Assembly: GCA_023717525.1 (NCBI GenBank)
Contig: JAMQPK010000077.1
Span: 1-41,174 of the forward strand
Source: Vicinamibacterales bacterium
GTDB taxonomy: Bacteria > Acidobacteriota > Vicinamibacteria > Vicinamibacterales > JAMQPK01
DNA length: 41,174 bases
Direction of reading: 5' to 3'
Shown: in pieces, positions 24,442-34,209 of the stretch
How the letters are laid out: the number at the start of each line of letters is the position of its first letter
Position numbering within the stretch: position 1 is the stretch's first letter
Program-made: the position numbers and the translations under genes
Notes under the pieces: model-generated
Databases searched by the model: none
What the model saw: the letters and a program-made list of their open reading frames with translations, nothing else
Told to the model about the DNA's origin: nothing

Positions 24442-27400
24442 CTAGAAGATGAACCGAAGCTGCATCTGCACGGAACGCATGGCTTGCGCGCCGTTCACGG
24501 CCCCGGCGCCCGCGTTGGCTGGCGTCAGGCGCGTGCTGTTGACCGTGCCATCCGCGTTGAACTGGTTGTTGCGAATCGTCGTGGGATCCGATGGGTTGTT
24601 GTACTGAATGGCCGAGACCCGGGAGTTGTACACGACCGAGTTGAACACGTTGAACGCGTCGACACGGAATTGGATCTGGCGGGCGCCGCCGACTTTGATG
24701 TTCCGCGCGATCGCCAGGTCGGTCGTGTGGTCCCAGCAGCCGTTCAGCAGGTTGGCGCCGGACTCGTTGCCGGTGCTGTTGTAGGTCGGACCCGCGAACG
24801 CAGCGGCGTTGAACTGCGCGTACTGATTGCTCGAGCACCCCGATCCGTAATCGCCTGTCGGCCTGATGCGGGCAGTGTATTGCGGCGAGCCGGTCAGGTT
24901 CACGTTCGCGCCGGCCGTCTGATACGTGTAGGTCGCATCGTACGGAGCCCCTGACCCGGCGTAGTAGGCGCCAGAGATCTGCCAGTCGTTCGCAATGGCC
25001 GCCATCACCTTGCGCGCGCCGGTGCCGGGTTCCATGTCCGGCAGGTCGTAGATGAAAGTCGCCCTGATGAGCTGCCGGCGAAGTCCGACGTTCGAGATCA
25101 GCTCGTCGTTCGCTTCCTGGTAGCTTGCGAGGCCGATTGTGCCGTCCGTGTTGTGCACCAGATGCTGCGGCGAGAGCGTGTTGCCTTCGAAACGGAGCCC
25201 GACGGTCCACGCAAGGCCCGCTTGCCAGTTGTTGCGGAACCGTCGATTGAGCGCAATCTGCAGCGAATCGTAATTCGTGTGGAACCTCGGAGACGTCAAG
25301 ACGATCGGCCCGAGTCCGCGGAATGGCCTCATCAGATCCGTTGCCACCGCCATGGCGCCGGGAACGGTGCTCGCGGCTGCGGTCGCATCCTGATTCTGCG
25401 ATTGATAGGCGGCGCCGACATCCGGTGCGTTGAGATCGATTGGGTTCTGTCCGGCAGGTGTCGAGATCGATCCGAACGCGATGGAGTTGTAGTTGTGCGT
25501 GCCGACATAAGAGACGTCGAGCGCCGCGTACCAGGGCAGCGTCATCTGCACGCCCGCGTTCCACTGCGTGGCTGCGCCGATCTTGGCGTCGTATTGGTGA
25601 ATCAACATCACCGGCGGCGCCTGGAGAGCCGTCGTCCCGGCGGCGACCGATTGAAGCGTTGAATTGATGACAGTCGATCCCTGGCCGGTTGGAGGGTTGC
25701 CGATCTGGCCGAAGATCGCATCGCCCTGCGGCCTGTCGTAGAACACGCCGACGCTGCCGCGGAGGACCACGGTCTGACTCCCCGAGATGTCGTAGGCGGC
25801 GCCGATACGCGGTCCGAACACAAGCGAGTCTTCGATGTAGTTTTCCTTCGCAATGCCGTTGCCAGCCTGAATGACGCCGTTGGTTATGACGCCGGTGCCC
25901 GGAACGATCGTGCCGATGGCCACAGCCGTGTTCGGGCCGAGTGAGGTATTCGTTCTCGGATCGATCGCCACGCGATTGGCAGCCGCGCAGGTCGCGCCGG
26001 GCGTCGAGCAGCCCGGGAGGTAAAGCAACGGGGCGTTGGCCTTCGACCACTTCTCCGGGAAGAAGTTCGACGCCTGCTGTTTGATGTCGTACTGCGGCCC
26101 GTGATGCGTGAAGCGCATGCCGAGGTCGAGGGTCAGCTTCGGCGAGATTTTCCAGTTGTCCTGAAGAAAGAAGTCCTTGTTGTAGTAGCGGTAGTCGCCT
26201 TCGTAGAGTTGGTTCTGCTGCTGGAACTGCTGGAACACCCCGGTCGCCGCGTTGGCGAACGGGAACCCCGTATCGAGCGGGTTGTTGGTGTCGTTGGTGA
26301 AGGTGACGCGTCCCTCAAAGGGAAGCGCTCCCTGAGTCACCGTGCCGAGATTCTGCAGCTTGAGGCTGTCCTGCGACTGGTATCCAACCTTGAAGGTGTG
26401 GGCGCCCCAGAGCTTGGTCATGCTGATTGCCAGGTCTTTTGTGTTCTGCATGCAAAGGAACGTCGGATAGATCAGGCCGGGTGGCGGATTCGCAACGCGG
26501 CCGCCCCAGACGAATGCCGGGGCCAGGACGACCCGGCCGTTCTGGTAGAACGGCGCGTTCATCTCCTGAAGAACCTTTTCCTGGTACGTGCCGGCCGGCA
26601 CGAGTCCGTTCTGGTAGATTCGCGGGAAGCCCGTGAGCCCTGTATACGACGGGTCGGTATACGGGGTGTTGATGACGTTGCCGAGCTGGTTGCCCTGCGT
26701 GAGGCCCCACGTGGCTTCGAGTATCGTCGAGTTGTTCAACGTGTAGTCGACGGTGGCCGACGGGACGAGAATCGCCGGGAACTGGAATACGTTGTCGTTG
26801 TACCCCGGCAGCGTGCCGGCGTTTGTCTGCACCGTTGCGTTCTGCCCGGCGTATTTGGCGCTCACGCGCAGCTTCGACGACGCCTGCCAGTCGATTCTGA
26901 CAACGTGCTGATAGGTGTTGCTGTTCACATCCGGCGCAACCGCTTCGAGGTTGTAGTTGGCGCCAGGAATGCTCACGTTCGGCTGCGGGTAGCTCTTCAG
27001 GATGTTCATGCCGAGGCCGTAAAGCCGGCTCTGCGGGATTCTGCCGACCACGCCACCGTCCTGGAAGCATCCGCGTGTATCGGCCGCCGTGCAGGGCAGG
27101 CCGGTCGACGAATCGCGAATCAGATTGAAGAGAGCGCCGGCGTTATCGGTGGTCTGCGAGAAATCGCCCTGGCGTTCCAGCGCCGTCGGCACTCTGAACC
27201 GGGTGACCGCGCCCCCGGCCTTGCGCGGGGAGAACTGCTCGGAATAGAAGAAGAACAGGCTGTTCTTTCCGCCTGGCTTTCCGACCGGGCCGCCGATCGT
27301 GTAGCCCCAGTCGCGCTGTTTGGAGACGGTCTTCGGGTTGCCGTTGCGGTCGTTGACCCAGCTGTTCGAGCTCCAGTCGGAGTTGCGTTCGATATCGAAG

Positions 27401-28140
27401 AACGATCCGCGGAACTGGTTGGTGCCGCTCTTGGTGACGCCGGAAATCTGAATGCCAGTGGTGCGGCCATACTCCGCCTGGTAGGCAGAGGAAACGACCT
27501 TCACTTCGGCGATGGAATCGGAGTTCAGTTGCAGCCCCTGCTGGTTGCCGCCGGTGTTGACCGAGGAAATACCATCGAGCAGATAGTTCGTGCGCGCGCC
27601 GTCGAGCCGGGCCACGGCGCCGGTGGTATTGGTGGCGATGACCCCGGGAGTCAGCACGGCGTAGGCCGAGAAGTTCCGCAGCGCCATCGGCACGTTCTCG
27701 ACGACCTCTCGTGTGACGACGAAGGACCGGTCACCGGTCTGCGCCTGAATCATCGGGGCGTCCCCGGTGACGAGCACCGTTTCTTCCAGCGCTCCAACCT
27801 CGAGCATGAGCGGAGGAACTGCCGCGCGATCGCCAAGGCTGACGACCACCGCTTTCCGTTCGGCCGACTTGAACCCGACAAGCGACACTCTGACGGTGTA
27901 GGTGTCGGCCGGTACGTTGGCAAACACGTAGTCGCCGGTTTCCGTCGTGGTTGCCTCGAACGTGGTTCCGCGGGCCTCGCTGATCAGCGTGACTGTTGCG
28001 CCAGGAATCGCTCCGCCTTGTGTGTCTCGCACAGTACCTGCAACCGTCGAGGTCGACTGCGCTGCTGCGTTCGAGGCCAACATCGTCACTACTGCTGCGA
28101 CGACTGCCCACAGTATTACTTTGTACCCACTCATCTTCAT
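24442..28140 (-). CDS. Oar-like TonB-dependent receptor with carboxypeptidase-regulatory domain
   Basis: 1232 residues from the ATG at 28140, chosen because GGGGAG lies six bases upstream and a signal peptide follows (VILWAVVAAVVTMLASNAAAQ); the frame stays open to 28362. Residues ~30-115 are a carboxypeptidase-regulatory-like beta-sandwich (VAGTVRDTQGGAIPGATVTL). The plug contains LTPGVIATNTTG, NYLLDGISSVNTGG and EYGRTTGIQISGVTKSGTN. A long barrel follows, and the last residue is Phe (LRFIF), the outer-membrane insertion signal. Such receptors import large or scarce substrates across the outer membrane using TonB energy. The substrate is not identifiable. Upstream are a cupin and a PQQ-type dehydrogenase gene on the same strand. 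Confidence 0.93.
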   Translation of the reverse strand: MKMSGYKVILWAVVAAVVTMLASNAAAQSTSTVAGTVRDTQGGAIPGATVTLISEARGTTFEATTTETGDYVFANVPADTYTVRVSLVGFKSAERKAVVVSLGDRAAVPPLMLEVGALEETVLVTGDAPMIQAQTGDRSFVVTREVVENVPMALRNFSAYAVLTPGVIATNTTGAVARLDGARTNYLLDGISSVNTGGNQQGLQLNSDSIAEVKVVSSAYQAEYGRTTGIQISGVTKSGTNQFRGSFFDIERNSDWSSNSWVNDRNGNPKTVSKQRDWGYTIGGPVGKPGGKNSLFFFYSEQFSPRKAGGAVTRFRVPTALERQGDFSQTTDNAGALFNLIRDSSTGLPCTAADTRGCFQDGGVVGRIPQSRLYGLGMNILKSYPQPNVSIPGANYNLEAVAPDVNSNTYQHVVRIDWQASSKLRVSAKYAGQNATVQTNAGTLPGYNDNVFQFPAILVPSATVDYTLNNSTILEATWGLTQGNQLGNVINTPYTDPSYTGLTGFPRIYQNGLVPAGTYQEKVLQEMNAPFYQNGRVVLAPAFVWGGRVANPPPGLIYPTFLCMQNTKDLAISMTKLWGAHTFKVGYQSQDSLKLQNLGTVTQGALPFEGRVTFTNDTNNPLDTGFPFANAATGVFQQFQQQNQLYEGDYRYYNKDFFLQDNWKISPKLTLDLGMRFTHHGPQYDIKQQASNFFPEKWSKANAPLLYLPGCSTPGATCAAANRVAIDPRTNTSLGPNTAVAIGTIVPGTGVITNGVIQAGNGIAKENYIEDSLVFGPRIGAAYDISGSQTVVLRGSVGVFYDRPQGDAIFGQIGNPPTGQGSTVINSTLQSVAAGTTALQAPPVMLIHQYDAKIGAATQWNAGVQMTLPWYAALDVSYVGTHNYNSIAFGSISTPAGQNPIDLNAPDVGAAYQSQNQDATAAASTVPGAMAVATDLMRPFRGLGPIVLTSPRFHTNYDSLQIALNRRFRNNWQAGLAWTVGLRFEGNTLSPQHLVHNTDGTIGLASYQEANDELISNVGLRRQLIRATFIYDLPDMEPGTGARKVMAAIANDWQISGAYYAGSGAPYDATYTYQTAGANVNLTGSPQYTARIRPTGDYGSGCSSNQYAQFNAAAFAGPTYNSTGNESGANLLNGCWDHTTDLAIARNIKVGGARQIQFRVDAFNVFNSVVYNSRVSAIQYNNPSDPTTIRNNQFNADGTVNSTRLTPANAGAGAVNGAQAMRSVQMQLRFIF

Positions 28141-28225
28141 ACTGGCTCCCCAGATAGAAAGCTTGCGCCACGACACGTGCGCGCTCTGCGGTTTGGCTTT
28201 AGAACGCCCAGATCCTAACACGGGT

Positions 28226-28258
28226 GGCCTCAAGAGGCCGAGAACGGCCGCACCGTTC
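28226..28258 (-). other. Tandem hairpins upstream of the TonB-receptor gene
   Basis: GGCCTC-AA-GAGGCC (28226-28239) and GAACGG-CCGCA-CCGTTC (28242-28258) lie next to each other, 86-118 bases before the receptor start. Either could be an operator or a leader structure. The second one opens a sequence repeated near 35263. Confidence 0.35.
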
Positions 28259-28278
28259 GTACTGCCTACGAAGATTCG
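28242..28278 (-). repeat. 37-bp dispersed repeat, copy A
   Basis: 30 of 37 bases match 35263-35299, without gaps. Both copies are upstream of a minus-strand gene and in the same orientation relative to it. Read on the minus strand, both would encode R-(I/V)-FVGS-(T/A)-NG-(A/V)-AV, with several of the differences silent. Confidence 0.55.
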
Positions 28279-28394
28279 TGTTCGCCACGGCCCAGAGAAT
28301 GCTGTTCGTCGTGCCCATCGCGGAAATCGATGGCGTAGTGCTGTCACAACCAATCCCTTCATCGGACTCGTCTCCCTTGTGTTGTTGTCGCCAT

Positions 28395-28943
28395 CTAACG
28401 GACCTTGATGTTGAAGTACCAGAATGGGGGCTCGACCTCGCTGTACCAGTGCGGCACGCCTTTCGGAATGACGATCGAGTCGCCCGCGCTGAGATTGTGG
28501 GTGTTACCTCCGACAATTCTGGCGCCGCGAATTTCGTATTCGGGATGCGGATTATCGGGTCTCGACGCGGGGTGAGGATTGACGTCAACGACGGTACCGC
28601 CAGTGACGATGGTGGCCGAGCCTTTCACGATGTAGGTGACGTCGGTATCCATCAGATGCACTTCGGCTCCGCCCGGCCTGTCACGCTGAGCCGTCTCCAC
28701 CATGTAGGATCCATGGCTGTCGTGCAGCATCAGCGTCCGCTGCTCGAAACCGGTCGCGATTCTCTCCTTCGAGGAGTAGATCACCGGCTCAGCCGAGGCG
28801 GGCGCCGTGTACGTATCCGGCGTCCCGGCCGACGCCGCCGAAGTGGCCCCAATTTTCCTCTGCGGCCCCGTCTGGGCCCAGGTGGTGACAGCGAGCACGA
28901 CCACCGCGATGGCCGCAAGCGATGCTGATCTCTTTACAGTCAT
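28395..28943 (-). CDS. Exported cupin-domain protein
   Basis: 182 residues with an N-terminal signal (SLAAIAVVVLAVTTWAQ). The cupin core runs from about residue 95 to the end: HLMDTDVTYIVKGSATIVTGG (motif 1 lacks the usual double His) and LSAGDSIVIPKGVPHWY (motif 2 with its His). With few of the standard metal ligands present, it may bind rather than transform a ligand. The start has AGGG five bases upstream and lies 15 bases after the dehydrogenase stop, so the two are cotranscribed. The function is unknown; a periplasmic partner of the dehydrogenase is possible by context. Confidence 0.82.
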   Translation of the reverse strand: MTVKRSASLAAIAVVVLAVTTWAQTGPQRKIGATSAASAGTPDTYTAPASAEPVIYSSKERIATGFEQRTLMLHDSHGSYMVETAQRDRPGGAEVHLMDTDVTYIVKGSATIVTGGTVVDVNPHPASRPDNPHPEYEIRGARIVGGNTHNLSAGDSIVIPKGVPHWYSEVEPPFWYFNIKVR

Positions 28944-28958
28944 GATTCCCTCGCCTCA

Positions 28959-30242
28959 CTAGCGGCTCGACCCTCTGTAAATGACGCGCCAGATCTTGCC
29001 TTTGACGCTTTCGGTGATGTAGAGCGAGCCGTCCGGTCCTTGCGCTGTCCCGTTGGGACGAGCCACCGCATCGGCGGGGCTCATCAGCGGTTCCTTCCCT
29101 TTGAACCCGTCAGCGAACACTTCAAATTTGCCCGACACTTTGCCATTGACGAACGGCTGAAACACGACCTGGTAACCGGCCTGAGGGAGAGGCGTGTTGT
29201 TGTGGGAGCCGTGCGCAGCCATGAACAACCCTCCACGATATTTCGCCGGAAACTGCGTGCCGGTGTACGGCATCAAGCCCACGGGGGCGTAATGCGCCGG
29301 GAACGCCGCGACCGGTTGTTTGTACTGCGCACAGCGGCCGCCCTCTTCCTTGCCATCTCCCCCGTATTCCGGAGCGAGCCTCATCTTGTTGTTCTTGCCG
29401 TCCAGCCAGCAGTAGGGCCAGCCGTAGACGTCGCCCTCGCTGATTTCCAGCAACGGCTCGAGCGGCCTGAATGCGTTGTCTTCATCGGTGAACTTCGTGG
29501 GATAGAGGGTATTGAGCGAATCGCGGCTGTTCATCGCGGCGTAGAGTTTGCCGTTGTGCCACGCGAGCGCCACTGGCTGACGCATCCCTGTCGCATATCG
29601 GTTGGCGGGCGAGTACGTCTGCCCGACAATATCCGCCTTGAATCGCCAGATGCCGCCGCCGTCTGTGAGCATCGGGCACGGATCGGGCGCCACCGCGTTC
29701 GGGATCCTCTCCGTGCACGCATTCGACGGCAACCCGATATTCACGTACACGTTTCCCGCATCGTCGAAGGCGATGTCCTTGTCCTGGTGGCCGCCCGTCG
29801 TGCCGCGCATGCCACTGACAATTGCCTCTGCAAGGCCGACGGGCTTCAATTCGCCCGGCGTCATCTTGAAACGCTCGATCGATGTGGTCGTCGCGTAATA
29901 CAGGTAGCCGTTTCGCATCACCAGCCCTGTGGCGCCGTTGGTGCCGAACCGCTCCATGACGTCGGCCTTGCCGTCGCCATTGGTGTCCCGCAGGCCTGCG
30001 ATGCCGCCGGGGCGCGGCCCGATATTTCGCAGGGAGACGTAGATATCGCCAGTGGGAGTGACCAGGATGTGCCGCCCTCCCTCGCCCGCGCCTTCCGACA
30101 CAACCAGCGCGCAGAAGCCTGCGGGCAGCGTCAGGCCTCCGTCATTGGTATCGCACGCCGGCAGCGCACGCTGCCCGACGAGGTTGGCCGTGCCGAGTCC
30201 AGAAGCACACACCGCGACCAGGACGAGCATCGCGCGCTTCAT
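28959..30242 (-). CDS. PQQ-type glucose/sorbosone dehydrogenase family protein, periplasmic
   Basis: 427 residues with a signal peptide and a consensus Shine-Dalgarno (GGAGG, six-base spacing). Family blocks are LPAGFCALVV, RHILVTPTGDIYVSLR, GGHQDKDIAFDDAGNVYVNIG, RYATGMRQPVALAWHNGKLY, ISEGDVYGWPYCW, FMAAHGSHN and ARPNGTAQGPDGSLYITES. These match sugar dehydrogenases of the GSDH superfamily (sorbosone-dehydrogenase-like). Two cysteines (about 155-170 region and CWLDG) may form disulfides. It has a strong upstream promoter with a ~110-nt leader, unlike the leaderless genes nearby, and is followed by a cupin gene 15 bases downstream. Substrate and true cofactor are unproven. Confidence 0.9.
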   Translation of the reverse strand: MKRAMLVLVAVCASGLGTANLVGQRALPACDTNDGGLTLPAGFCALVVSEGAGEGGRHILVTPTGDIYVSLRNIGPRPGGIAGLRDTNGDGKADVMERFGTNGATGLVMRNGYLYYATTTSIERFKMTPGELKPVGLAEAIVSGMRGTTGGHQDKDIAFDDAGNVYVNIGLPSNACTERIPNAVAPDPCPMLTDGGGIWRFKADIVGQTYSPANRYATGMRQPVALAWHNGKLYAAMNSRDSLNTLYPTKFTDEDNAFRPLEPLLEISEGDVYGWPYCWLDGKNNKMRLAPEYGGDGKEEGGRCAQYKQPVAAFPAHYAPVGLMPYTGTQFPAKYRGGLFMAAHGSHNNTPLPQAGYQVVFQPFVNGKVSGKFEVFADGFKGKEPLMSPADAVARPNGTAQGPDGSLYITESVKGKIWRVIYRGSSR

Positions 30243-30342: not shown

Positions 30343-30394
30343 ATACTTTATTGAGCAAGGTATCTCAGCTAGCTCCTCAAGTCAATCGGATCAC
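30343..30394 (-). promoter_or_regulatory. 52-nt conserved promoter element, copy 1
   Basis: On the minus strand: TTGACT (30380-30385), a 17-base spacer and TACCTT (30357-30362), reading toward the dehydrogenase gene at 30242. The 52 bases are 39/52 identical, with no gaps, to 32259-32310 on the plus strand. Conservation extends beyond the promoter boxes (TCCGATTGACTTG upstream and ATACCTTG..TCA..AAAGT downstream), and most differences lie in the spacer. An 8-bp palindrome AGCTAGCT sits in this copy's spacer. Confidence 0.65.
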
Positions 30395-30436
30395 CAACTG
30401 TACTGAAACTGACTGGTCAAGCCGGCGGTTCGTCGG

Positions 30437-31174
30437 CTAGTTCTTGAACTCGACCACGATCGCGTCGACGCGTGAGTCGTCCTGGTTCTCGCTCGTCTGG
30501 GTCGATGCACCGAACCAGCTGAACTCGCTCGCCTTATGCTGTTCGATGGTGTCTGTCTTCTGCCCGGCTGAAACCTGCTGGATGTGCTGGTCGGTGATAT
30601 AGACGACCAGACGATCGGCCAGCGCGTGCAGCGGCACGCGCTGGCGCGGGGCGAGCCGCAGCCGCAGCACGCGAACCTGGCTGTTCTCGAACTCGAGCGT
30701 GAACGCGCCGAGGGCAACTCGCACCGCATCGAGCGGGGTGCTCGCCTTCGTCGTGGCACTCCCCGCCTTCTTGATGCCGATGTCGACGATCATCGGGCCG
30801 GTGAAGGCCGGGGTCTTCCAGACTCGTGGGTCCAGCTCAGGCGGAATTTCGGAATAGTGAAACCCGCTCGCCGGGCTCCATTGCACTTCTCCCTCTTGCC
30901 ACTTCAGGTCGACGATGCCGCCGTCGAGGTAGTGGAGGCGCTCCCCTCCCGGATGCAGGTACACCATCACCCGGTTCAGCTTGTGGTCGTGCATTTTGCG
31001 CGTGGAGCCGGGAACGTCAACCGCCGGGTGCGGCGCGTTGACGATGACCTGGTCGTTCTCGAATGAGGGCTGCGCCGCCGGTTGTGGCGCCGCCTGCGCG
31101 TGCGCCGCGCCAGGCGACGCGAACGTCAGACCAAGCGCCAGCCAGCAGCCGGTTGAGAAGAGCGCGAGCTTCAT
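30437..31174 (-). CDS. Exported bicupin-like protein
   Basis: 245 residues from the ATG at 31174, with GGGAG eight bases upstream and signal peptide MKLALFSTGCWLALGLTFASPGAAHAQ. A start at 31192 would overlap the upstream stop (ATGA) and also works. Two similar halves are visible. The first has FENDQVIV, MHDHKLNRVMVYLHPG and HYSEIPPE; the second has FENSQVRVLRLRLAPRQRVPLHALADRLVVYITD. Both look like cupin-fold strands, with His residues retained mainly in the first half. This is a known layout for secreted acidobacterial proteins of unknown function. It is cotranscribed with the upstream MBL-fold gene, so a shared substrate is possible. Confidence 0.8.
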   Translation of the reverse strand: MKLALFSTGCWLALGLTFASPGAAHAQAAPQPAAQPSFENDQVIVNAPHPAVDVPGSTRKMHDHKLNRVMVYLHPGGERLHYLDGGIVDLKWQEGEVQWSPASGFHYSEIPPELDPRVWKTPAFTGPMIVDIGIKKAGSATTKASTPLDAVRVALGAFTLEFENSQVRVLRLRLAPRQRVPLHALADRLVVYITDQHIQQVSAGQKTDTIEQHKASEFSWFGASTQTSENQDDSRVDAIVVEFKN

Positions 31175-31188
31175 GACTTTGTCTCCCT

Positions 31189-32232
31189 TCATCGCTGCAG
31201 CGCGGCGATATTCGCCTCGCTGCACTCCTGCACGGCCTGAAACATCTTGCTCACACCCGGGATGCCCACCACGAAGGGATTGGGCGCATTCGGGTTCGCC
31301 TTCACCGCGTCGATGCGCTTGAAGTAGTCGCTGAACCCGTCGTGGTTCGATAGCAGCACGTCTGCGTTTGCCGCGCGCGCCAACCGCTCCAGCCGCATCG
31401 CGGAAGCGCTGTGCAGCGCCAGATTCTCCGCTCCGGTCTGCCGCCCGATCCCCGTGCCTCCCCAGAACGCCGCCATGTGGGTCACCCCCTTGATTTTCAC
31501 CGGTATCAGGAACGACAACGTACCAGGCGTGTGACCCGGGGTGATGTACACGGCGATCGTGGTGTCGCCAAGGGTATACCGCTGACCATCGGTGGCGTCG
31601 AGATCCCGCGCGGGAACGGGCGGGCCGTCCGCGGCGCCAGTGGCATTCTGCGTCCGCACGATGTCCCAGTCGGCTGGCGCCATATACACGCGCGGCTTGT
31701 AGAGAGCCTGAAGGTACTTCGCCCCGCCTACGTGATCGCGATGGTTGTGTGTTATGAAAATCACCTTAATATCGGCCGGGTTGAGACCGAGCTTCTTTAG
31801 GCCGTCATCCACGATCTCCTTGACGCTGTAATCGTACGTCGCGTCGATCAGGATGATGCCCGCCGCTGTGGTGACAGCCCAGGCCGATACGCCGCCGTTG
31901 CCGCTCTTGGTGGCCAGGACATACACGTTGTCGAAAACCTTCTCGGGATCGCGATACCAGGCATCGCGCGGGGGCGGCGGAGGGGGCGCGGCATTCGGAG
32001 CGGCGGGGGCCGGCGCCGGTTGAGCCGGCATGGGGGTTTGCTCCAGCGGACCGCACATCTGGCCGATCGCGGCCCGCCAGAGTTCACCGCCTGCGGCTCT
32101 GGCCGCGGCGATGTGCGTCGCCACCGCAGCCGGCACCGATGGGGCTTGCGCGCGCGCACCGGTCAGTCCCCAGGCGACGCCGAGCGTTGTGACGGTGCCA
32201 ATCAGAATTCGACTCGCGGAACGGGTCTGCAT
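31189..32232 (-). CDS. Secreted metallo-beta-lactamase-fold hydrolase (subclass B3-like)
   Basis: 347 residues with an N-terminal export signal and a Pro/Ala-rich spacer (~70-90). MBL motifs are THNHRDHVGG (HxHxDH, about residue 160), TPGHTPGTLSF (next ligand His) and NHDGFSDYFKRID (a late His). The spacing and the GHTPGTLSF block resemble subclass B3 enzymes, a group that also contains many non-lactamase hydrolases, so antibiotic resistance should not be assumed. The bicupin gene starts at or just after its stop. The pair is bracketed by two outward-facing copies of a conserved promoter element. Confidence 0.88.
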   Translation of the reverse strand: MQTRSASRILIGTVTTLGVAWGLTGARAQAPSVPAAVATHIAAARAAGGELWRAAIGQMCGPLEQTPMPAQPAPAPAAPNAAPPPPPPRDAWYRDPEKVFDNVYVLATKSGNGGVSAWAVTTAAGIILIDATYDYSVKEIVDDGLKKLGLNPADIKVIFITHNHRDHVGGAKYLQALYKPRVYMAPADWDIVRTQNATGAADGPPVPARDLDATDGQRYTLGDTTIAVYITPGHTPGTLSFLIPVKIKGVTHMAAFWGGTGIGRQTGAENLALHSASAMRLERLARAANADVLLSNHDGFSDYFKRIDAVKANPNAPNPFVVGIPGVSKMFQAVQECSEANIAALQR

Positions 32233-32258
32233 TGACGTGGCCTCACGGTCAAGATTCT

Positions 32259-32310
32259 GTGTTCCGATTGACTTGCGGACCGGAGTGCAATACCTTGTTC
32301 AGCAAAGTCT
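32259..32310 (+). promoter_or_regulatory. 52-nt conserved promoter element, copy 2
   Basis: TTGACT (32268-32273), a 17-base spacer, then TACCTT (32291-32296), pointing toward the broken NHL gene. It matches 30343-30394 in inverted orientation (39/52). Transcription would start near 32303, right where the remnant of the NHL signal peptide begins. Confidence 0.65.
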
Positions 32311-32794
32311 ACCAGTCTTCTCGTTCTCGCGCTCACTGTTCCCTTGATCGGCCAGGATGAGGCGCCGGCCGCTCCAGCCAACGGTACGGACCCCGATCAG
32401 ATCTAATGAGGCGCTGAAGAAGCTGCAGCACGGGCCTCAGCTGCCGCACGGCGTAACAATGGACGCACAGGGGAGGATCTATGTTGCGGACCGCGGCAAC
32501 TCACGCATACAGGTCTTCGATCGTTCGGGTAAGTTCCTCGCGAAGTGGATCGACATCGGCCAGCCGTGGGACGTCTACTACGCGTCGCAGGAGAATGCGT
32601 TGTATGTGTGCGACGGGCAGTACGATCGCATCACCAAGCTCAGTCTGGAGAGCAAGGTGCTCGGCGAACTGAGTCATTTTGGGAAAGCACCGGGCGAGCT
32701 GGATTTCGCGCACGCGATTACGGTGAGCCCCGACGGAGCCGACATTTACGTCGCCGAAATCAAGAACTGGCGCGTCCAGAAATGGTCGAGGTGA
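32302..32794 (+). pseudogene. Broken NHL-repeat (amidating-lyase-like) protein gene
   Basis: Two pieces in different frames. 32305-32406 encodes a signal-peptide-like KSTSLLVLALTVPLIGQ stretch ending at TAA, with no start codon. From 32357 the +1 frame is open and encodes the last ~110 residues of an NHL propeller: PHGVTMDAQGRIYVADRGNSRIQVFD, NALYVCDGQYDRITKLSLESKVLG and a C-terminal VAEIKNWRVQKW. Intact members of this exported family are roughly 350 residues, so about the first half of the propeller is missing. A promoter element still precedes it. The tail overlaps the convergent HAAS gene by 35 bases. A short functional protein from the ATG at 32357 is possible but lacks an export signal. 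Confidence 0.6.
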
Positions 32795-33554
32795 GTGACG
32801 TCTCCATCGGGATCGTGAACCAGTCGGCGAACGCCCGGTCGAATCGCGAGAACAGCTGTTCGGTCACGAGCCAGATGATGACCAGCGCGGCCCCAACGAG
32901 GGGCCGCGGGGTCACATTGGTCGTGACCGTGGCAAAGAGGTAGCCGGTGAAGCCGACAAACATCAGAGGGGGCCTGAGCGAGCTTCGACCCGTCCGGCTC
33001 GCCACGGCACCAATGGCGGTCAGCATCGGCATGTGCCACGGCTCCCAGCCACTGAGGCCGTAAGAGAAGGACGCCTGAAGCCAGGTCGCGAAGACGCAGT
33101 ACAACGCAAACGCCACCGCGGCGCGTTTGGCATTGAACGGCTTTCGGCCGATCTCCCAGGCCGCTGCCATGGCCAGCACGATCTTGATACCCACCATATA
33201 CGTGTAGAAGAATCCCGGCGCGAGGTGAACGCCTGAACTGGCTACCCGCAAATGCACAGCCGCGAGAACGAACTCGGCGGCGGCGCCGGCGGCTACGACA
33301 GCGATGAACGCCCTCGCCGCATACAACGAGAGAAAATCCCATCTGTAGACGCGGCTGAAGCTCCTGGCCACCTCCAGCGCCGGGCCGAACCGAGCCATGG
33401 CCTCACACGTCGAAACCCCGCAGGTCTCTGCCTCATCGAAATGGGTCTCCAGTTCGCGACAGAGGTCGTCCCGGGCGGACTCGCCGGGAAGGCGCGCCTG
33501 GCGCACGATACGCTCGATGACTTCTGGAACGCGCAGCTCGCCGTGTGCAGCCAC
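32760..33554 (-). CDS. HAAS-type membrane protein paired with PadR
   Basis: 264 residues from the GTG at 33554, supported by GGGAGG six bases upstream, overlapping the PadR stop by one base (TAGTG). The N-terminal ~60 residues (VIERIVRQ, DDLCRELETHFDEAE, EAMARFGPALEVARSFSRVYR) resemble the HAAS/permease-prefix domain. About five or six hydrophobic segments follow (FLSLYAARAFIAVVAAGAAAEFVLA, FFYTYMVGIKIVLAMAAAWEIG, AAVAFALYCVFATW, LMFVGFTGYLFATV, LVGAALVIIWLVTEQLF). HAAS domains are recurrently encoded right after PadR regulators and are thought to sense or anchor. The specific signal is unknown. Confidence 0.78.
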   Translation of the reverse strand: MAAHGELRVPEVIERIVRQARLPGESARDDLCRELETHFDEAETCGVSTCEAMARFGPALEVARSFSRVYRWDFLSLYAARAFIAVVAAGAAAEFVLAAVHLRVASSGVHLAPGFFYTYMVGIKIVLAMAAAWEIGRKPFNAKRAAVAFALYCVFATWLQASFSYGLSGWEPWHMPMLTAIGAVASRTGRSSLRPPLMFVGFTGYLFATVTTNVTPRPLVGAALVIIWLVTEQLFSRFDRAFADWFTIPMETSLTSTISGRASS

Positions 33555-33883
33555 TACACACCTCCCAGGATTGCCTGAAGCGCCGCCGTGATCTGTTCCC
33601 ACTGCGCGCGCTTGGATTCCGACCGCCGCCGTCCCTTTGCCGTCAGGGCATAGTACTTCCGCTGGCGGCCGGATTGGTGGTGCTTCCATTCCGCTTTCAG
33701 CAGGCCGTCGCGCTGCATCTTGTGCAGGGCGGGATAGAGAGAGCCTTCCTTGAGCTGGAACTCGCGAGCGCTTCTGCGGTCAGCTTCCTGCAGGATTTCA
33801 TAGCCGTACATTGGCCGCTCAGCGAGCAGTCCGAGAATCAGGACGGTGATGGTGCCGCTCAGGAACTCCCGGTCGTAATCCAT
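33554..33883 (-). CDS. PadR-family transcriptional regulator
   Basis: 109 residues, a subfamily-2 size without a large C-terminal domain. The winged-helix blocks are TITVLILGLLAERPMYGYEILQEAD, EFQLKEGSLYPALHKMQRDGLL and RQRKYYALTAKGRRR. PadR proteins dimerise and usually repress their own operon and a neighbouring membrane or transport gene until a ligand binds. Here the only tightly coupled target is the downstream HAAS membrane protein. A TATACT box (33905-33910) lies 21 bases upstream of the start. No operator palindrome was convincing. Confidence 0.93.
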   Translation of the reverse strand: MDYDREFLSGTITVLILGLLAERPMYGYEILQEADRRSAREFQLKEGSLYPALHKMQRDGLLKAEWKHHQSGRQRKYYALTAKGRRRSESKRAQWEQITAALQAILGGV

Positions 33884-34209
33884 ATCGGTCTCTTCAGTGC
33901 GCCAAGTATACCGGGCTCAACAAGGGGTAACGTTGGGTGGCTCAAGGCCTCTTCCAGGCTATAGCGCTGCAAGCCACGCGTTGCGAGCACGGCACCACCG
34001 GCCACCGCAGGGTCGGGATGCGGCAGCACCTTGGTGAGGCCGTCCCATCCCGCAGCCACGTGATAGGGCTCTTTGGCAATACGGTCACCCTCTTCCGCCG
34101 TCGCGACGATCGACGAGTGAACGAGGACGATTCCATCCTGGCTCTCGGCGACGGCGACCGCCGCCACCCAACCCATATGCGCCCGAAACCCGATGGCGGC
34201 TTTCGTCAC
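33859..34209 (-). pseudogene. Probable remnant of a small uncharacterised gene
   Basis: A 116-codon frame beginning at GTG (34209). The first ~60 residues (KAAIGFRAHMGWVAAVAVAE ... EPYHVAAGWDGL) look like the N-terminus of a small uncharacterised family of roughly 170 residues that I recall from environmental genomes. The rest does not look conserved and runs 25 bases into padR, whose promoter lies inside it. No Shine-Dalgarno is seen. A 3'-truncated remnant is the simplest reading; a real short gene cannot be excluded. Confidence 0.35.
33905..33910 (-). promoter_or_regulatory. Putative -10 box for padR
   Basis: TATACT on the minus strand, 21 bases before the PadR ATG, with a weak purine-rich ribosome site between. 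No clear -35 box. Confidence 0.4.

Follow-up and report, generated by a model that had tools for sequence, protein, structure and literature searches.

Genes and features at the locus

The window, that is, the whole stretch of DNA analysed here, comprises 41,174 nucleotides and is an entire contig of a 3.78-Mb genome assembled in 242 contigs. Two 52-base elements lie within it in inverted orientation, and the surrounding genes and predicted sites are arranged as follows.

24442..28362, minus strand: carboxypeptidase-regulatory/TonB-type outer-membrane beta-barrel protein (PF25183, PF13620), same direction as the two genes below
28395..28943, minus strand: cupin-domain protein (PF07883), the gene next to the GSDH-like gene and in the same direction
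28959..30242, minus strand: GSDH-like secreted beta-propeller (PF07995, E=4.1e-6), first gene downstream of the left element
30343..30394, minus strand: left promoter-operator, TTGACT-N17-TACCTT with an overlapping palindrome, reading toward the GSDH-like gene
30344..30362, minus strand: left predicted PadR operator, TACCTTG-CTCAA-TAAAGTA, with the -10 box TACCTT as its left arm
30437..31225, minus strand: "bicupin", second enclosed gene, no family match obtained
31189..32232, minus strand: MBL-fold protein, first enclosed gene (PF00753, E=2e-19), divergent from the right element
32259..32310, plus strand: right promoter-operator, in the intergenic region between the divergent MBL and NHL genes, reading toward the degenerate NHL gene
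32291..32309: right predicted PadR operator, TACCTTG-TTCAG-CAAAGTC
32357..32794, plus strand: C-terminal remnant of an NHL-repeat gene (PF01436)
32760..33689, minus strand: HAAS-like membrane protein in an operon with padR (HAAS PF22564, E=0.0095, below cut-off)
33554..33883, minus strand: padR, 109 aa (PF03551, E=1.6e-25), candidate regulator of both elements
33909..33927: degenerate site resembling the operator, some 26-44 nt ahead of padR (4.0 bits)

The left element is situated between the end of the bicupin gene (30437) and the start of the GSDH-like gene (30242). Since both genes run on the minus strand, the element is a promoter inside a row of genes that share one direction. The right element lies within the 124 bases that separate the divergent MBL (start 32232) and NHL (32357) genes. 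The preliminary description had the elements pointing outward from the enclosed pair of genes; this orientation stands, with the refinement that only the right element diverges from an enclosed gene, the left one being internal to its row. Two of the gene names given there fared less well, as the "bicupin" product found no support in Pfam or NCBIfam and the "PQQ-type dehydrogenase" proved to be a weak GSDH match. For the HAAS-like reading frame, the first ATG is probably too far upstream, and the true start lies inside the frame. Three-frame translation of 32314-32794 places a signal-peptide-like stretch (LLVLALTVPLIGQDEAPAAPANG, about 32314-32400) in a different frame from the C-terminal NHL part. 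The NHL gene is apparently a pseudogene beside an intact promoter-operator.

Sequence and copy number of the element pair

An ungapped scan reproduced the reported coordinates, inverted orientation and match of the pair, with 39 of 52 positions identical between 30343-30394 (minus) and 32259-32310 (plus). Both elements contain TTGACT-N17-TACCTT in a sigma70-like promoter layout. When the window was compared exhaustively with its own reverse complement, the pair tied for the top score with one other 39/52 pair (12479-12530/15361-15412), which looks like two homologous ABC-ATPase coding stretches. The pattern TTGACTTG-N13..17-ATACCTTG was matched twice in the window, against none expected from shuffles. 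The preliminary description had proposed a whole-genome search for the element, and this returned only the two copies as an exact pattern. With up to three mismatches the pair was again alone, the remaining matches being at background or control level, and a sequence-model search of the genome likewise recovered only the pair (E=1.7e-13 each, a value that follows by construction). A phage collection gave no match.

The similarity of the two elements ends at their edges, and within them conservation is weaker in the spacer and at the centre of the operator than in the boxes. In both, an imperfect palindrome overlaps the -10 box, which forms the left arm of the near-palindrome TACYTTG-N5-YAARGTM; the consensus TACYTTG-N5-CAARGTA is met at 13 of 14 positions in each. 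The shared part thus includes a specific 19-bp operator, which answers the earlier concern that the resemblance might be limited to generic -35 and -10 boxes. TACCTT is a poor sigma70 -10 match, and a generic sigma70 promoter scan reports neither element. By inspection, TTGACTTG of the window contains a CTTG that stands 22 bp away from that of the operator, equal to the spacing of tandem sites in the orthologues described below. Additionally, the columns of the pair outside the motif agree at 21 of 32 positions (p about 6e-6), including 8 of 9 upstream of the -35 box. Because agreement thus extends to non-motif columns, the two promoters probably share ancestry and descend from one duplicated promoter.

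The neighbouring PadR and its operator in relatives

The candidate regulator lies about 1.2 kb beyond the right element. Its PadR winged-helix domain (PF03551) scores 89.3 bits against a gathering score of 27, and it narrowly passes the curated cut-off of the NCBIfam paralog family TIGR03433 padR_acidobact (103.7 vs 101.8). In alignment, the wHTH tyrosines with described roles in DNA contact (PMC6457526) are kept, namely the Y in MYGYE and that in SLYPALH. The HAAS match of its partner reaches 16.7 bits against a cut-off of 27, whereas the corresponding neighbours in L138 and L139 match at E about 1e-7. Relatives of the window's HAAS-like protein adjoin padR orthologues in G025, L137, G082 and L135.

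A box search of 60 relatives provided the lead to an operator, as it located ATACCTTG in genome G025 within two tandem palindromes, CCTTG-N5-CAAGG, directly upstream of padR. The window PadR is 71% identical to that of G025. Ten PadR relatives were collected, comprising G025 and nine at 52-68% identity; their genomes bear the labels of several phyla. In all ten, the distance from palindrome to padR start is within about 22-70 nt, and in five of them two palindromes stand 22 bp apart. In L138-L140, labelled Bryobacterales or Terriglobia, the arrangement is TTGACA-N17..18-TAC(C/T)TT-G...CAARG, so that, just as in the window, the -10 box doubles as the left arm of the operator. Furthermore, a PadR labelled Kiritimatiellales (L157), which has a HAAS-like protein as neighbour and was outside the training set described below, has TACCTTGCTTTACAAGGTA just upstream. 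Within the orthologue genomes, most of the best sites are at padR, with two one-mismatch sites elsewhere in G165.

TACYTTG-N5-CAARRTA-like sites were also seen upstream of PadR genes at 311-329 in L157 and around 5922-5965 in L149, L150 and L152 (Kiritimatiellales- and Agathobaculum-labelled), which suggests that operators of this type are widespread among PadR-HAAS pairs. Separately, the padR promoter of L134 (JAIEMQ010000015.1), a record titled "Cyanobacteria bacterium", is the same as that of G025 contig C4. This title is probably a mislabel, G025 being placed in the window's own order.

At the padR promoter of the window itself (33884-33960, minus strand), only the degenerate operator-like site CCCCTTGTTGAGCCCGGTA was observed, while all ten orthologues keep strong ones. 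The site at 33909..33927 is the top-scoring one in the 160 nt preceding padR, ranks sixth in the 41-kb window and agrees with 10 of 14 consensus positions. With only a degenerate site at its own promoter, self-control of padR in this genome is doubtful.

Held-out prediction of the operators

A symmetric matrix was built from 15 orthologue sites in the ten relatives, with no window sequence included. Applied to the window, this held-out matrix ranked the right operator first (26.0 bits) and the left operator second (22.1 bits), followed by a third site at 13.3 bits; the maximum in a simulated control, a 4 Mb Markov sequence, was 16.7 bits. When one genome at a time was left out, the true sites scored 16-28 bits. 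For 14 PadR paralogues of the order that are more distant, the sequences upstream scored from -4.7 to -13, and these negative scores indicate that the motif belongs specifically to this group of PadR proteins.

An Infernal sequence model of orthologue promoters (R2) offered a complementary search. On the window's own genome it found only the two elements at E<=10, with modest values of 0.008 and 0.035. Across 162 genomes of the order it matched in five only, all of which carry a PadR orthologue. PadR regulators as such are common in the order, with matches at E<=1e-20 in 80 of the 162. Four of the five positive genomes supplied training sites, and the informative part of this result is therefore the own genome together with the silence of the other 157. 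What can be read directly from the sequences is the presence of the two elements, the match of their operators to those of the PadR orthologues, the uniqueness of the pair within the genome and the fact that such promoters occur together with PadR.

Proposed regulation and alternative explanations

In our judgement, the elements are very probably sigma70-type promoters carrying a PadR operator, with the PadR-HAAS system whose PadR is encoded at 33554-33883 as their regulator. The earlier suggestion that the two flanking genes share one regulator is thereby strengthened, since a candidate PadR is encoded nearby on the minus strand and the promoters of its orthologues contain the same operator. 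A PadR dimer would bind TACYTTG-N5-YAARGTM and block RNA polymerase; with the operator lying over the -10 box and start site, repression by occlusion would be the simplest meaning. The GSDH, cupin and outer-membrane-barrel genes on the left and the now degenerate NHL gene on the right would thus be kept off. A membrane signal sensed through the HAAS-like protein may then release PadR and allow transcription of the GSDH-cupin-barrel genes and, formerly, of the NHL gene. From sequence we infer PadR binding, repression, the HAAS-to-PadR signal and the extent of the left operon. Several observations sit less comfortably with this explanation. The promoter of padR itself has only the 4.0-bit site, unlike that of every orthologue; control of genes other than padR is without clear precedent in the relatives searched, all of which come from other families of the order; and the poor -10 match and modest R2 values noted above also count against it.

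The preliminary description had alternatively proposed that the elements delimit a 1.9-kb cassette that has moved. They would then be the terminal inverted repeats of a mobile unit holding the MBL and bicupin genes, which would account for the inverted orientation and for 76% identity over 50 bp. This candidate was rejected, and we regard it as scarcely credible: no target-site duplication was found, no transposase or recombinase lies between the elements, exact, mismatch and model searches gave only one pair in the genome, and conservation is centred on promoter and operator boxes that match a regulator's operator in other genomes. It is only slightly less improbable that the elements are promoters of an alternative sigma factor, with no role for PadR and an incidental resemblance to its operator. 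The -35/-10 pair with N17 spacing and the conservation continuing upstream of the -35 box would fit such promoters, but a promoter class of this kind would be expected to recur in the genome, where only two copies exist. Moreover, downstream of the -10 box, where the palindrome has its right arm, sigma factors make few specific contacts, and the held-out PadR matrix recovers both elements.

The binder could also be another PadR of this genome, which contains several PadR candidates. We consider this very unlikely, because only one PadR in the genome is found at E<=1e-20, the more distant PadRs of the order differ in upstream sequence, and the window PadR is both close to the right element and a member of the group whose orthologues own this operator. 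A variant compatible with PadR promoter-operators holds that PadR acts as an activator or in a dual manner, or that through the right operator it governs the divergent MBL-bicupin genes as well. The near-symmetric right operator does lie in the 124-bp intergenic region shared with MBL; nevertheless, it covers the -10 box and start site, where binding usually represses, and a generic promoter scan recognised no MBL promoter in that region. We give this variant perhaps one chance in a few, well above the three preceding alternatives.

Within the explanation by PadR promoter-operators, the history of the locus may be described more tentatively. The PadR-HAAS pair, mainly self-controlling in relatives, may have been rewired here, its own operator having decayed while a duplicated promoter-operator captured two neighbouring units, the sugar-dehydrogenase-like and outer-membrane receptor genes on the one hand and the NHL gene on the other. 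The degenerate padR site and the agreement of the pair outside the boxes fit this scenario, which rests on one genome and to which we assign somewhat less than an even chance.

Comparison with known systems

PadR proteins are known to repress and self-regulate in Listeria (PMC6624303, PMC6457526), where the operon of the PadR protein LltR, including a DUF1700 gene, rises in expression when LltR is lost (PMC6624303). The system described here resembles the LftR-like PadR-2 type of Listeria monocytogenes (PMC6457526) in its PadR of about 109 aa, a partially palindromic operator within the promoter, probable repression and conserved wHTH tyrosines. It differs in that the operator is TACYTTG-N5-CAARGTA and that the strong sites are at two other promoters rather than at padR. 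A HAAS-PadR dyad has been proposed as an alternative to two-component systems (PMC11237479). As in that dyad, the gene directly after padR encodes a membrane protein whose N-terminus is HAAS-like, and the pair is kept in orthologues; however, the window's HAAS match falls short of the Pfam cut-off, and the inferred targets are the GSDH, cupin and outer-membrane barrel genes and NHL rather than envelope-stress genes. The window PadR is also of the TIGR03433 padR_acidobact kind, although it barely exceeds the curated cut-off. It has N-terminal FLSGT and LKEGS motifs, in contrast to the QGTLD type of more distant PadRs, and its partner is HAAS-like.

A literature search found no published operator for this PadR group. 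Our analysis offers an operator consensus common to genomes that bear the labels of several phyla, together with a named candidate regulator and two putative target promoters. Two nearby genes probably share one local switch, forming a regulon of a known kind, and the locus is a possible example of a local self-regulating switch that has been rewired to its neighbours.

Relatives of the neighbouring genes

The same genome encodes a second GSDH-like gene (L093 6348-7637, contig C168), 73% identical to that at 28959-30242; no promoter-operator element was found upstream of this paralogue. A search of the contig collection with the MBL protein gave no match. The MBL-fold protein is similar to class B3 metallo-beta-lactamase models, with the CAR family as best match (E=1.6e-38), but scores far below the curated cut-offs of these models. 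It has two paralogues of about 46% identity elsewhere in the genome.
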